DNA of 10,315 nucleotides from Bacteroidota bacterium (GTDB lineage Bacteria; Bacteroidota; Ignavibacteria; Ignavibacteriales; Ignavibacteriaceae). Below the pieces are notes generated by a model. The model was not told where the DNA came from. It made no database searches and was given only the letters and a program-made list of their open reading frames with translations. Positions 3,755 through 10,315 of this stretch are shown here, piece after piece. The stretch is taken from NCBI GenBank assembly GCA_021796135.1, contig JAJYOQ010000117.1, positions 1 to 10,315 on the forward strand. The letters are read 5' to 3'. The number at the start of each line of letters is the position of its first letter. Positions within the stretch are counted from its first letter, which is position 1. Both the position numbers and the translations under genes were made by a program.

Positions 3755-3783
3755 TAATCCCTTTTTCATCCCTTCGCTCTATT
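3755..3783 (+). repeat. 29-bp intergenic direct repeat, copy 2
   Basis: Identical over 29 bases to 1372-1400 and in the same orientation. This copy lies in the 269-bp region between the divergent transporter (start 3611) and lectin (start 3881) genes, not after a gene end, so it is not simply a terminator of the upstream gene. Confidence 0.85.
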
Positions 3784-3848: not shown

Positions 3849-3880
3849 GGTTTTTATTCAATTAAAGAATGGAGTTCTCT

Positions 3881-4434: not shown

Positions 4435-5907
4435 ATGCCCGGTTTGTTAGAAGAATATTTTAACCCTTATAGAAAAAATATTGTCGGTATCGACCACTCC
4501 TTCCTTTCCCCTTATGGCGAAAAAAAAATCGTCTATGCCGATTGGATCGCTAGCGGTCGCCTCTATGCCCCTATTGAAAAAAAAATAATCGAAACCTTCG
4601 GTCCCTTTGTCGGTAATACTCATTCCGAAGCTAGCTTTACCGGTACGGCTATGACTGTCGCCTATAAGTCCGCTCACGATATTATTAAAAATCATGTCAA
4701 TGCCGGCAAGGATGATGTTATTATTACCGCTGGCTCCGGTATGACTGCTATGATTAATAAATTCCAAAGAATCCTTGGTCTGAAAATTCCTGAACAATTA
4801 AAAGAGTATCTGAACCTTCCTCCTGAATTAACACCTGTGGTCTTCGTTACTCACATGGAACACCACTCAAACCATACTTCCTGGCTCGAAACTATCGCTG
4901 ATGTCGTCTGTATCCAGCCTGATTATAATGGTCTGGTCGACCTTAATGACTTCGAACTCCAGCTCGAAAAATATAAAAATAGAAAATTAAAAATCGGCGC
5001 CTTTACCGCTTGCTCTAATGTCACTGGTATCGAAACTCCTTATTATAAATTGGCTTCTATGATCCATAAGTACGGCGGATTCTGCTTTGTCGATTTCGCT
5101 TGCTCCGCTCCTTATGTTAATATCAATATGCATCCGCCTGATGAATTGGAAAAACTCGATGCTGTCTTCTTTTCTCCTCATAAATTCCTCGGCGGTCCCG
5201 GCTCTCCCGGTGTGGTTATCTTTGATTCGCACCTCTATAAAAATAAAATCCCCGATAACCCGGGCGGCGGTACTGTCGATTGGACTAACCCCTGGGGTCA
5301 GCATAAATTTGTTTCTAATATCGAACTGCGTGAGGACGGCGGCACTCCCGCTTTCCTCCAAACTATTAAAGCTGCCCTTTGCGTTAAATTAAAGGATGAT
5401 ATGGGCGTCGATAATATTAAAGCCCGGGAAGAATACCTTGTCAATATTACTCTGAATGGTCTTAGAAATATCCCCGGTCTGCATATCCTTGCCGATAATG
5501 TCAACGATCGCTTGGGCGCTGTCTCTTTCTATGTCGATAATATCCACTATAACCTCTTGGTCAAATTGTTGAATGATCGCTTCGGTATCCAAATGCGCGG
5601 CGGATGCTCTTGCGCCGGCACTTACGGTCACTATCTGCTCCATGTCAGCCCGGACCAGTCTAAACATATTACCGAAAGAATTAACTTGGGCGACCTTTCC
5701 GAAAAACCCGGCTGGGTGCGTATGTCTGTACACCCTACTATGTCTGACTATGAACTGAATTTTATCCTGAATTCTCTCACTGATATTGTCCAAAATATCT
5801 CTGCCTGGAAAAAAGACTATTTCTATTCTTCTCACGATAATGAATTTTTCCATGTCTCTTCCGGCAATTCCGATAATCAGATGATCAAAAATTGGCTGAA
5901 CTTATAA
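4435..5907 (+). CDS. Class V aminotransferase-fold PLP enzyme, cysteine desulfurase-like
   Basis: A cytosolic pyridoxal-phosphate enzyme of the NifS/CsdB/SufS superfamily. It has 490 residues, longer than a typical SufS (about 400), with extra sequence at the C-terminus (after about 450). Visible landmarks: 'GSGMT' (100-104, phosphate loop), 'MEHHSN' (141-146, with a ring-stacking His), 'FVDFAC' with Asp220 (contacts the pyridine nitrogen), and 'SPHKFLGGPGSPG' with Lys250 as the Schiff-base lysine. 'RGGCSCA' (388-394) aligns with the 'RTGHHCA' of SufS-type desulfurases, placing Cys393 at the catalytic cysteine. This supports desulfurase or selenocysteine-lyase chemistry, but many relatives are uncharacterised, so the substrate is open. 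GGAA (4425-4428) precedes the ATG by 6 bases. No SUF/ISC scaffold genes are adjacent, and terminator-like signals suggest it is transcribed alone. Confidence 0.85.
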   Translation: MPGLLEEYFNPYRKNIVGIDHSFLSPYGEKKIVYADWIASGRLYAPIEKKIIETFGPFVGNTHSEASFTGTAMTVAYKSAHDIIKNHVNAGKDDVIITAGSGMTAMINKFQRILGLKIPEQLKEYLNLPPELTPVVFVTHMEHHSNHTSWLETIADVVCIQPDYNGLVDLNDFELQLEKYKNRKLKIGAFTACSNVTGIETPYYKLASMIHKYGGFCFVDFACSAPYVNINMHPPDELEKLDAVFFSPHKFLGGPGSPGVVIFDSHLYKNKIPDNPGGGTVDWTNPWGQHKFVSNIELREDGGTPAFLQTIKAALCVKLKDDMGVDNIKAREEYLVNITLNGLRNIPGLHILADNVNDRLGAVSFYVDNIHYNLLVKLLNDRFGIQMRGGCSCAGTYGHYLLHVSPDQSKHITERINLGDLSEKPGWVRMSVHPTMSDYELNFILNSLTDIVQNISAWKKDYFYSSHDNEFFHVSSGNSDNQMIKNWLNL

Positions 5908-6363: not shown

Positions 6364-8541
6364 ATGAACAATAAAACCTTTTTACCTTATCGCAAAATAT
6401 TTTCTTCATTGTTTTTTATATCTTTCTTTATGCTGCTGGCTTGCAGTAAATCTTATGCTCAATCTAATGACGACTGCTTGACTTGCCATAGCGATAGTAC
6501 TCTGACTATGAAAAAGGCTGGCAAAACAATTTCCCTTTTTGTGGATTCTAATGTACTGGCTCACTCTCCTCACCTAAAACTGCAGTGCGTCTCTTGCCAT
6601 GTCGGCTTTGACCCTAATAATGATCCTCATAAAAAGGATATTCAGCCGGTTGATTGCAAATCCTGTCATAAAGACGCTGCTATCAAACACCCGTTCCATC
6701 CCCAAATGATGAAGGCTACCGGGCAAAGTCAGGGTGTTGATGTCAATTGTAAATATTGCCACGGTACGCATGATGTCGTTTCTCCGAAAGTCCCTGGTTC
6801 AAAATTTTATAGAACTAATATCGTTGACGCTTGCGGCTCCTGCCATAAAGACAAAAAAGCTGAATACGAAACTTCTGCCCACGCTAACGGTCTTAGAGAA
6901 GGTATTAAAGGCGCTCCTGATTGCTTTACTTGCCATAGAAATCCGATTGTCTCTGCTTCCGCTCTTAAAGATAGTACCGAAATTAAAATCGCTCAGGAAA
7001 AATTATGCATCTCCTGCCATCTCGATAATCAGGAAATTAAATCCAGAACTTCCCCGTCTGCCGGATTTATTACTTCCTACGAACAAAGTGTTCACGGCAA
7101 AGCCCTTCTCGGCGGTAATGGTAAAGCTGCTAATTGCGTTAATTGCCATACTGCTCATAAAGTAAAACCGGCTAGCGATCCTACTTCTACGGTTAATAGA
7201 TTTAATGTCCCTAATACTTGCGGTCATTGCCATGCCGAAATCGCTTCCGAATATAAACAAAGTGTCCATGGTGTGGCTGTCCTCCAAAAAGGTAATCTTG
7301 ATGCCCCTGTTTGCGTTACTTGCCATGGCGAACATAATATCATGAACCCTGATAACCCGTCTTCTCCGACGGCTTATGCTAACGTGTCTCAGGAAATTTG
7401 CTCTAAATGCCACTCCTCTCTCGCTCTCTCTGCTAAGTATGGTCTGAATCCTAATAGATGGAGCACTTTTAAAGATAGCTACCATGGGCTGGCTATGCAG
7501 GGCGGCGCTACTATCGTTGCTAATTGCGCTAGCTGCCATACAGCTCATAATGTATTGCCTCCTTCTGATCCGAGATCTAGCGTCTATAAGGGTAACCTTT
7601 CTAAAACCTGCGGTAGATGCCATCCGGGCGCTAATGAAAAATTTGCCGGCGGTAATATCCATGCTTCTAATGCTAATCAAAAAAATGAACCTGTTCTTTA
7701 TTGGATTGCTTTTATCTATATCGCTATGATTATTTCGGTTATCGGCGCTATGCTGCTGCATAATATCTTGGATTTTATTAAAAAAGCTAGAATTAAAAAA
7801 CTTAAACAAATGGGTATGATTATCCATGAAAAACCAGGTCATTCATTGTATTTAAGAATGACTCTTAATGAACGTATCCAGCATATCCTCCTCGCTTTAA
7901 GCTTTATTGTCTTGGTTATTACCGGCTTTATGCTGCAGTTCCCGAATTCCTGGTGGGTCTCTCATGTCAGAAGCTTGAGTGAAAATGCTTTTACTTATAG
8001 AGGCATTCTGCATAGAATCGCCGCTGTTATTATGATTGTCGTTAGCTTGTACCATCTCTATTATATCCTCTTTACGACTAGAGGTAAACAGCTTGTTAAA
8101 GACCTGCTTCCTAAAAGACAGGACTTCTTCGATGCTATCGGAGTGGCTAAATTTAATCTTGGCTTGTCTAAATCTAAACCTAAACTTGACCGCTTTAGCT
8201 ATGTCGAAAAAGCTGAATATTGGGCTTTGATCTGGGGTACTATCATTATGTCGGCTACCGGTCTTATTATGTGGTTCTATTATACTCTATTTATCGGCTG
8301 GTTCTCTCTGCTCGGCTGGGATATCGCTCGCACTATCCATTACTATGAAGCTTGGCTTGCTACTCTGGCTATTCTGGTCTGGCATTTCTACTTTGTTATC
8401 TTTAGCCCGGATATCTATCCGATGAACCTTTCCTGGCTGACCGGACACCTTACCGAAGAAGAAATGGAAGATGAACATCCGGCTGAATTGGAAAAATTAA
8501 ATGGTCAGCTTTCTGATAATGAAGAAAATAACAGCAAATAG
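6364..8541 (+). CDS. 13-heme cytochrome c fused to membrane cytochrome b domain
   Basis: A 725-residue quinone-linked membrane cytochrome. A signal sequence (1-33) ends 'SYAQ|S'; 'LLAC' (24-27) could alternatively be a lipobox. The periplasmic head carries 13 CxxCH motifs, with first Cys at 38, 75, 98, 129, 157, 187, 215, 258, 286, 317, 346, 388 and 416; several are followed by a further His ('CHGTH', 'CHTAH', 'CHGEH') as in doubled-CxxCH families. Residues 445-680 hold about five membrane helices with His at 466, 507, 550, 564, 659 and 674 as potential heme b ligands, like the cytochrome b561/formate dehydrogenase gamma group. The tail (695-725) is acidic. The fusion would carry electrons between the quinone pool and the heme chain, in the manner of Geobacter CbcL; the direction and partner are not known. 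The ribosome-binding site is weak. A paralogous cytochrome follows 10 bases downstream. Confidence 0.9.
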   Translation: MNNKTFLPYRKIFSSLFFISFFMLLACSKSYAQSNDDCLTCHSDSTLTMKKAGKTISLFVDSNVLAHSPHLKLQCVSCHVGFDPNNDPHKKDIQPVDCKSCHKDAAIKHPFHPQMMKATGQSQGVDVNCKYCHGTHDVVSPKVPGSKFYRTNIVDACGSCHKDKKAEYETSAHANGLREGIKGAPDCFTCHRNPIVSASALKDSTEIKIAQEKLCISCHLDNQEIKSRTSPSAGFITSYEQSVHGKALLGGNGKAANCVNCHTAHKVKPASDPTSTVNRFNVPNTCGHCHAEIASEYKQSVHGVAVLQKGNLDAPVCVTCHGEHNIMNPDNPSSPTAYANVSQEICSKCHSSLALSAKYGLNPNRWSTFKDSYHGLAMQGGATIVANCASCHTAHNVLPPSDPRSSVYKGNLSKTCGRCHPGANEKFAGGNIHASNANQKNEPVLYWIAFIYIAMIISVIGAMLLHNILDFIKKARIKKLKQMGMIIHEKPGHSLYLRMTLNERIQHILLALSFIVLVITGFMLQFPNSWWVSHVRSLSENAFTYRGILHRIAAVIMIVVSLYHLYYILFTTRGKQLVKDLLPKRQDFFDAIGVAKFNLGLSKSKPKLDRFSYVEKAEYWALIWGTIIMSATGLIMWFYYTLFIGWFSLLGWDIARTIHYYEAWLATLAILVWHFYFVIFSPDIYPMNLSWLTGHLTEEEMEDEHPAELEKLNGQLSDNEENNSK

Positions 8542-8551
8542 AAATGCCTAT

Positions 8552-10120
8552 ATGAAGCTATATAAAATCTTTTATCTTTTTTTAATTTTTCCGCTATGGC
8601 TGCTTCTTAACTTTAGTCTATTTGCTCAGTCTAATAGCGATTGCCTTACTTGCCATGCGGATAAAACTCTCACGGGTAAAATAAACGGACATACTGTTTC
8701 TGTCTATATCGACGAAAAAAAACTCGCCGCTTCTGTCCATAATGGCAATCAATGTACGGATTGTCATGCCGATCTTGTAAATTCGGATTTCCCGCATAAA
8801 ACTAATGTCGCTCCTGCTCAATGCGTCCCTTGCCATGATGATGAACAAAAACAATACTCCGAGGGTATTCACGGTAAAGCCGTTGCTAAAGGCGATCCCC
8901 TTGCTCCTCGTTGCCAAAATTGCCATGGCTCGCATGAAATTCTGCCGGTTAAAGATATTCGCTCCGCTGTGGCTCCTATTAAAATTCCGTTTGTCTGCGG
9001 CTCTTGCCACCGAGAAGGTACTAAAGTCCAGATCCAAAGACATATTCCCCAAAATCATATTTTAGAAAATTATACCGAAAGTATCCACGGTGTCGGTCTC
9101 CTGCAGAAAGGTCTCTCTGTCGCTGCTAATTGCGCTTCTTGCCATTCTGCTCATAAAATTCTTCCTCCGACTGATCCGCAGTCTACAATTTCTCGAAAAA
9201 ATATCTCGAAGACTTGTACTAAGTGCCATCAGGAAATTGAAGTGGTGCATAGAAAAATTATTAAAGGTAAACTCTGGGAACAAGCTCCTAATACTCTGCC
9301 TGTATGTACCGATTGCCATGTTCCTCATAAAATTAAAGATGTACTCTATAAAGAAAGTGTCGCTAATCAGGATTGCTTAAGCTGCCACGGCAGGGCTAAC
9401 CTAAAATCTGCTGATGGTCGGTCTATGTTTGTCGATGTTGCTAAATTACAGAATTCCGTCCATGTTAATATCTCTTGCAGTCAATGCCATAATACTGTTA
9501 ACCCTTCTCTGATGCGCCCCTGCACTGGAATCTCTCCGAAGGTCGATTGCTCTATTTGCCACGCAGATGAGGGCGACCAGTATTCTAAAAGTATACACGG
9601 ACAGCTTTTTGCTAAACAAGATCCAAATGCTCCGGATTGCGAGGATTGCCATGGCTCTCATAATGTGCTGGCTAAATCTAATCCGGCTTCCCCTACTTTC
9701 CCGACTAATATCCCGAACCTCTGCGGCTCTTGCCATAGAACCGGCGAAAAAGCCGCTGTTAGATATCATGGAACTGAACATAATATTGTCGCTAATTATA
9801 CCGAAAGTATTCACGGTAAAGGTCTGATGAAAAGCGGTCTTACTATTACTGCTACTTGTACCGATTGCCATACTGCTCATATGGAACTCCCTCACTCCGA
9901 TCCTAATTCTAGCGTTAATAGAAAAAATATCGCCGCTACTTGCGGTAAATGCCACTATGGCATCCAAAAACAACTTGAGAATAGCGTCCATTCTCCTAAT
10001 ATTACTAAAACTGATAAGAAACTTCCTGTATGCAGACCGGCGATAAAGAAAGTACCCACCAACAGACCAGTCATACTCCAGAAAGTCCAGAACATAATCG
10101 GATATTTAACAGGTTCGTGA
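8552..10120 (+). CDS. Exported multiheme cytochrome c (15 full hemes, 16th interrupted), 3' end broken
   Basis: A periplasmic or surface electron-transfer cytochrome. I choose the ATG at 8552, 10 bases after the previous stop, because it gives a proper signal peptide ('MKLYKIFYLFLIFPLWLLLN', cleavage after 'LFAQ'); an earlier in-frame ATG at 8501 would overlap the upstream gene. CxxCH motifs start at residues 31, 68, 91, 121, 149, 194, 222, 252, 275, 309, 333, 363, 391, 436 and 464. Hemes 1-8 and 9-16 form two homologous octaheme units. The N-terminus also resembles that of the upstream cytochrome, so the two genes are paralogs in one operon. At Cys494 (10031-10033) the 16th motif is cut: the expected xxCH is missing, and the 28 residues to the stop at 10120 are only the antisense of a minus-strand cytochrome gene. 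The real protein very likely continued, probably into a membrane b domain. Confidence 0.85.
   Translation: MKLYKIFYLFLIFPLWLLLNFSLFAQSNSDCLTCHADKTLTGKINGHTVSVYIDEKKLAASVHNGNQCTDCHADLVNSDFPHKTNVAPAQCVPCHDDEQKQYSEGIHGKAVAKGDPLAPRCQNCHGSHEILPVKDIRSAVAPIKIPFVCGSCHREGTKVQIQRHIPQNHILENYTESIHGVGLLQKGLSVAANCASCHSAHKILPPTDPQSTISRKNISKTCTKCHQEIEVVHRKIIKGKLWEQAPNTLPVCTDCHVPHKIKDVLYKESVANQDCLSCHGRANLKSADGRSMFVDVAKLQNSVHVNISCSQCHNTVNPSLMRPCTGISPKVDCSICHADEGDQYSKSIHGQLFAKQDPNAPDCEDCHGSHNVLAKSNPASPTFPTNIPNLCGSCHRTGEKAAVRYHGTEHNIVANYTESIHGKGLMKSGLTITATCTDCHTAHMELPHSDPNSSVNRKNIAATCGKCHYGIQKQLENSVHSPNITKTDKKLPVCRPAIKKVPTNRPVILQKVQNIIGYLTGS
8639..10033 (+). repeat. Tandem duplication of an octaheme module inside the second cytochrome
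   Basis: Unit 1 (8639-9364, residues 30-271) and unit 2 (9365-10033, residues 272-494, truncated) align motif by motif. Heme cysteines 91/333, 121/363, 149/391, 194/436, 222/464 and 252/494 are all exactly 242 residues apart; hemes 1-2 (31, 68) correspond to 9-10 (275, 309) with one or two residues of slippage. Shared text includes 'NYTESIHG' and 'CGSCHR'. At DNA level a 17-base stretch (9068-9084) recurs exactly at 9794-9810. Confidence 0.85.
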
Positions 10121-10315
10121 TGCGTAGCGTGAGTAAAGTAGCCTGCGAATTGTCTATTAGCGCCTTCGTGGCATTTTTTACAAGTTTGAACTTTATTTTG
10201 AAAGCTTAAATGAGATTTCGGATTTTCGACCGGGAGAATATCATGAGATCCGTGGCAATCCCAGCATTTAGCAGTTTGGGAATAACCCAATCGAGAGACC
10301 TGACCGTGATAAGTT
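10028..10315 (-). CDS. Multiheme cytochrome c / cytochrome b fusion, internal fragment on the opposite strand
   Basis: Read from the right edge on the minus strand, about 95 residues begin 'TYHGQVSRLGYSQTAKCWDC' and contain two heme motifs, CWDCH (with a following Gly-Ser-His) and CKKCH, then 'GANRQFAGYF' and a hydrophobic helix 'FWTFWSMTGLLVGTFFIAGL' ending in His-Thr. This aligns closely with hemes 12-13 and the first membrane helix of the cytochrome at 6364 (CASCH, CGRCH, 'GANEKFAGG', then helix 445-468). It is therefore the head-to-membrane joint of such a fusion. The gene is open at the window edge (5' side) and loses its meaning at about 10028, where the frame runs into the antisense of the plus-strand cytochrome. 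It is best read as the displaced downstream part of the 8552 gene, or of a close paralog. Confidence 0.8.

Follow-up and report, generated by a model that had tools for sequence, protein, structure and literature searches.

The window, the whole stretch of 10,315 nucleotides analysed here, ends in an inverted join within a single multi-heme cytochrome gene, and we consider it very likely that this join is a chimera produced in the laboratory or by the assembler, and not in the cell. As an observation, the join is confirmed far beyond chance. Its two arms stand in opposite orientation, belong to the same gene, lack the part of the gene that lies between them and share at least 2 bp at the seam. 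As a biological feature, the join is very probably not real. The window starts and stops inside genes and its end is therefore likely to be the end of the contig. The coordinates of the features are given in Table 1.

Table 1. Features around the inverted join and the gene preceding it (positions in the window).
Feature	Position	Strand	Description
Upstream gene	6364..8541	+	Multi-heme cytochrome with a fused cytochrome b561 domain; Pfam PF14522, PF01292
Left arm	8552..10033	+	Residues 1-494 of a multi-heme c-type cytochrome; start also possible upstream, at 8501
Seam	10028..10033	.	GTATGC, fits both arms (compared with both corresponding places in L001, L002 and L003)
Right arm	10028..10315	-	Reverse complement of the same gene further on, corresponding to P0001 residues 544-639
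Antisense tail of the left-arm frame	10034..10120	+	28 residues, then a stop (10118-10120)

Translation and alignment with relatives showed that the plus-strand frame is cytochrome-like up to the Val-Cys pair encoded at 10028-10033. From 10028 to 10315 the coding signal is on the minus strand, where 96 cytochrome residues are encoded, ending in FFIAGLHT. A preliminary description of this DNA had reported a plus-strand cytochrome intact up to Cys494, a strand switch at about 10028 and a minus-strand piece with this same ending; alignment with relatives bears out the first of these, and translation and blastn the other two. The antisense tail that prolongs the left-arm frame past the seam is not a real C-terminus. 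By motif count, the left arm comprises 15 complete CXXCH motifs, and a 16th is cut at its first Cys. The intact homologue P0001 has 19 such motifs; the 17th is absent from the window, and the 18th and 19th are the two motifs of the reversed arm, which also carries the C-terminal hydrophobic helix.

To compare this arrangement with that of relatives, genome contigs were scanned and eight loci encoding a relative were obtained (L001 to L008). Blastn alignments were continuous with window positions 6457-10029 in L001 (83.7%), 6447-10029 in L003 (84.8%) and 8465-10026 in L002 (84.0%). Window positions 10028-10315 matched these three loci on the opposite strand over 288 bp, ungapped in each case (L001:6944-6657, 89.6%; L003:6865-6578, 87.8%; L002:1970-1683, 84.0%). 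Both arms are thus found as one gene in all three relatives with a DNA match reaching both breakpoints. Among the other loci, the contig of L004 ends within the left arm, L005 showed a partial upstream DNA match alone (window 8129-8480), and L006 to L008 showed none at the blastn setting used. In each of L001, L002 and L003, 406 nt separate the two breakpoints. In comparison with L001 and L003, in which the gene is a single open frame of 683 residues, the 117 bp between the arms are missing from the window, a statement that holds up to the window end. One gene, an inverted join and 117 absent bp support the inverted chimera with a skipped middle that the preliminary description had put forward; as a whole, its reading is partly supported. 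The fractions of identical codons against L001, L003 and L002 were 0.665, 0.649 and 0.647 for the left arm, and 0.728, 0.674 and 0.532 for the right arm. Judged by these fractions, of which the right-arm figure for L002 is the lower one, a single source genome for both arms is plausible. The right-arm codon identity to L002 being below that of the left arm counts against the chimera reading.

Protein comparisons placed the two arms in the same gene and not in paralogues. Of 7998 scored candidates, 7774 were homologues of the left arm at E up to 0.001, and the statistics on the two halves refer to the best 120 of these 7774. The left arm is 94% identical to P0001 over 100% of its length. The right arm is identical to P0001 residues 544-639 at 93 of 96 positions (97%), and to the paralogue encoded directly upstream (6364-8541) at 30 of 96 (31%). 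In each of the best 120 homologues (120/120), both halves were found in one protein, in the same direction and 38 residues apart, with positions extrapolated from the alignment ends. The 119-residue frame that contains the right arm retrieved 29 proteins, all aligned over at most 81% of it, as expected for the 96 residues up to the seam. The preliminary description had the minus-strand piece belong further downstream in the plus-strand gene, and this is what the relatives show. Its two cytochrome genes joined head to head are instead one. It had also named an inversion between paralogous cytochromes as an alternative, and the upstream paralogue would be a ready partner for it; such an inversion is virtually impossible given the constant 38-residue spacing and the identities of the right arm, and we regard it as excluded because the right arm matches the same gene.

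We also surveyed 80 genomes of the family to which the genome holding L001 (G001) belongs. Some match to the gene was detected in 74 of them. At least 28 of the 80 have a match on the same strand, with 58% identity or more, over P0001 residues 505-639, a segment that includes both breakpoints, and 27 of these 28 matches contain no stop. Near-full-length same-strand matches were found in at least 25 of the 80 genomes, one with a single TGA, and the matches in G030, G008 and G072 are partial yet cover residues 505-639. Matches at 32-51% identity, mostly to paralogues, also run in one direction across the breakpoint part in these genomes. The join interrupts a gene that, in relatives, is whole wherever it is found whole. 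A head-to-head form was absent among the matches listed in the 80 family genomes; according to the preliminary description, such an order in a relative would have spoken for a real rearrangement. The same description had proposed to look for a relative in which the gene at 8552 continues through CxxCH into a b-type domain; the gene does run on past the seam point in L001, L002 and L003 and in the best 120 homologues. In G072 and G064, the gene is split over two contigs, with coverage overlapping at about P0001 residues 500-583.

Analysis of domains and gene neighbourhood could give clues regarding the role of the intact gene. The left-arm frame contains Pfam domains PF14522, PF14537 and PF09699 above their cut-offs. 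The best Pfam matches of P0001 are Cytochrome_C7, Cytochrom_c3_2 and Paired_CXXCH_1, as are those of the window frame, and in NCBIfam P0001 has similarity below cut-off alone, best to DmsE-type decaheme cytochromes. The C-terminus of P0001, read by eye in the alignment, consists of one hydrophobic helix with no b-type domain. PF01292 was found in none of the precomputed domain sets of the best 120 of 7774 homologues. A b-type continuation of the gene was rejected, the best 120 of the 7774 homologues ending 22-88 residues (median 36) past the seam point and P0001 ending 38 residues beyond it. The “first b-domain helix” of the preliminary description was therefore a misreading; the b561-like protein is the product of a separate downstream gene. 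In L001 this next gene (7090-7950) scores 29.2 bits against PF01292, just below the cut-off of 30.1, and a further neighbour encodes a protein of 501 residues in which a NapC/NirT domain (PF03264) exceeds its cut-off and the match to the NrfH model stays below its own. The intact gene of relatives thus codes for a 19-CXXCH cytochrome ending in a hydrophobic helix, and its neighbours are b561-like and NapC/NrfH-like genes. These families suggest a part in passing electrons between quinones and cytochromes of the periplasm.

The region before the left arm is organised similarly in relatives. The upstream cytochrome gene occupies the same place in L001 and L003, as shown by blastn. A start of the second cytochrome is possible at 8501, overlapping the first gene, which stops at 8541. 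This overlap of the two frames is kept in L001 (5011 versus 5051) and L003 (4932 versus 4972), a sign that translation of the two cytochromes may be coupled. The cytochrome pair is preceded by an aminotransferase class V gene (4435-5907; SufS-like, below the NCBIfam cut-off), as it is in L001 and L003. Further upstream, an exact 28-bp direct repeat (1373-1400 and 3756-3783; chance expectation 0.00) occupies two intergenic stretches, one ahead of the gene at 1545 and one ahead of that at 3869. A search with 24 bases of the repeat, allowing up to 2 mismatches, gave one match each in 2 of 8 related genomes, both at 2 mismatches. The repeat is possibly a shared regulatory or leader element.

The preliminary description had based the join on a 6-bp microhomology, GTATGC. 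This sequence is compatible with both sides, and on the left side it also encodes Val-Cys. However, only GT (10028-10029) is securely shared: at the left place of 10028-10033 all three relatives (L001, L002 and L003) have GTTTGT, whereas the reverse complement of the right site is GTATGT in L001, GTATGC in L002 and GTATGT in L003. An overlap of up to 6-8 bp is possible, the upper figure following from codon meaning. Where the relatives have GTT valines, the window has GTA at 1 of 16 (L001), 2 of 13 (L003) and 3 of 17 (L002); where they have TGT cysteines, it has TGC at 4 of 5, 5 of 7 and 5 of 6, respectively. Since GTA is rare and TGC common in these counts, a 6-bp overlap is possible and not established, with a prior from the Val/Cys codon counts of roughly one in ten. 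In 200,000 random inverted joins drawn within the gene, at least 2 bp were shared in 16.7% and at least 6 bp in 0.16%. A DNA hairpin was considered as an explanation and rejected: the fold of the intact L001 region is not notably better than those of its 100 shuffles (z -1.01), 18 of which equal or surpass it.

We searched for the seam elsewhere. Of 391 genomes of the class, 54 contained a degenerate seam pattern, at 59 places in all, versus 16 matches for the backwards control. None of the 59 places, taken with their flanks, gave a tblastn match to either arm, and the control loci L001, L005 and L008 were found in the same search. The pattern matches are therefore unrelated to the cytochrome gene, and base composition in coding sequence may account for their excess over the control. 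Residues 476-522 of the chimeric frame, which share few words with database proteins, yielded two candidates and none at E up to 0.001 in a database of 90% identity representatives, which may hide such frames. An exact 30-base seam search in viral contigs gave no match.

Two kinds of real rearrangement within this gene were considered. In the first, some 406 bp of the gene would have been turned round in place, bounded by GTATGC / GCATAC, a short inverted pair. The seam is identical to the expected left end of such an inversion, the right junction of which would be 117 bp past the window end; because the window stops short of it, the window cannot separate this inversion from a chimera. If the left allele was GTATGC, the resulting 6-bp overlap is of a length that random inverted joins reach in 0.16% of cases, which would favour an inversion. 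We nevertheless consider it unlikely. Only 12, 14 and 11 of 42 bases pair at the two breakpoints in L001, L002 and L003, respectively, so that no inverted repeat is present there, and no Pfam recombinase family was detected among the eight window proteins scanned, though such an enzyme might be encoded downstream of the seam, past the window end, or at a distant place. The gene is in normal order in the best 120 of 7774 homologues and in at least 28 of 80 family genomes, and the outcome of the inversion would be the loss of a conserved gene. If it was true, the cytochrome would be broken or switchable and would lack the four final heme motifs together with the C-terminal helix. A 406-bp inversion at very short repeats that switches off the end of this 19-heme cytochrome, perhaps reversibly, and so tunes electron transfer is extremely unlikely. 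Intragenic inversions are reportedly the subject of a paper from 2024.

The second is a real inverted duplication or larger fold-back rearrangement, present in the organism or in some of its cells, and arising by template switching at a short repeat. Template switching in vivo can give the same kind of seam, and the right arm diverges from the same gene comparably with the left arm. Such an event is very unlikely here, however, as no carrier was seen among the relatives, the gene would be broken by it and a laboratory route explains the seam equally well.

We infer instead an artificial origin for the join. In an inverted chimera, the displaced 3’ end of a DNA copy would anneal through a few bases, from GT up to GTATGC, to an oppositely directed site that lies in the same gene at a distance of 406 bp, where extension would follow. 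The product would run forward into the gene, then turn back from a more distal position, the 117 bp between the arms being absent up to the window end. By analogy with published chimeras, phi29 strand-displacement amplification would be the best-documented source of such a molecule; library-preparation artefacts, a mis-joined assembly tip or other snap-back artefacts would have the same appearance. The length of the right arm suggests that more than one short read, or one long read, carried the arm, because 288 bp exceeds the usual short read. An amplified molecule would account for this length, but so would a real allele.

The significance of the join is that of a quality warning only, and its biological interest is low. 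The plus-strand frame of 522 or 539 residues is a truncated cytochrome to which 28 antisense residues are appended; the short frame on the minus strand is no second gene. Taken at face value, either frame would lead to a spurious protein or a false rearrangement.

The join can be compared with three known systems. As in invertons (PMC11892184), reversal of a segment between an inverted pair would give the left junction of the window. Unlike them, the relatives have no proper inverted repeats and the window has at most 6-8 bp; the window also shows one junction in one orientation, with no recombinase among its eight scanned proteins. Library-preparation chimeras containing inverted repeat sequences are known, and a PDSM model has been described for them (PMC10908179); set against these, the inverted pair of the window is at most 6-8 bp long, with its members 406 nt apart, and the right arm is 288 bp. 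For phi29 chimeras, which arise in multiple displacement amplification (MDA), it is reported that more than 85% are inverted with intervening deletions, that 76.8% have a complementary overlap of at least 2 bp, with a maximum of 21, and that the joined segments tend to be less than 10 kb apart (Lasken and Stockwell 2007, PMC1855051). Among 36.7 million inverted chimeras in a further data set, the overlap peaks at 7 nt with more than 95% within 3-13 nt, and the segments lie mainly within 5 knt, with a preferred distance of 80-280 nt; a table in that source gives 22,292 chimeras at an overlap of 2 nt versus 547,136 at 7 nt (PMC5372508). The window differs from these MDA chimeras in that its secure overlap of 2 bp is at the low end, and would be uncommon among them if it is the real value, and in that 406 nt is above the preferred distance. 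It resembles them in that its two segments are joined in opposite orientation, the sequence between them is missing up to the window end, and the breakpoints lie 406 nt apart and hence within 5-10 kb. Some bases are shared at the seam, 2 bp securely and possibly 6-8; overlaps in MDA-type chimeras span 2-21 nt, and 16.7% of random joins also share at least 2 bp.
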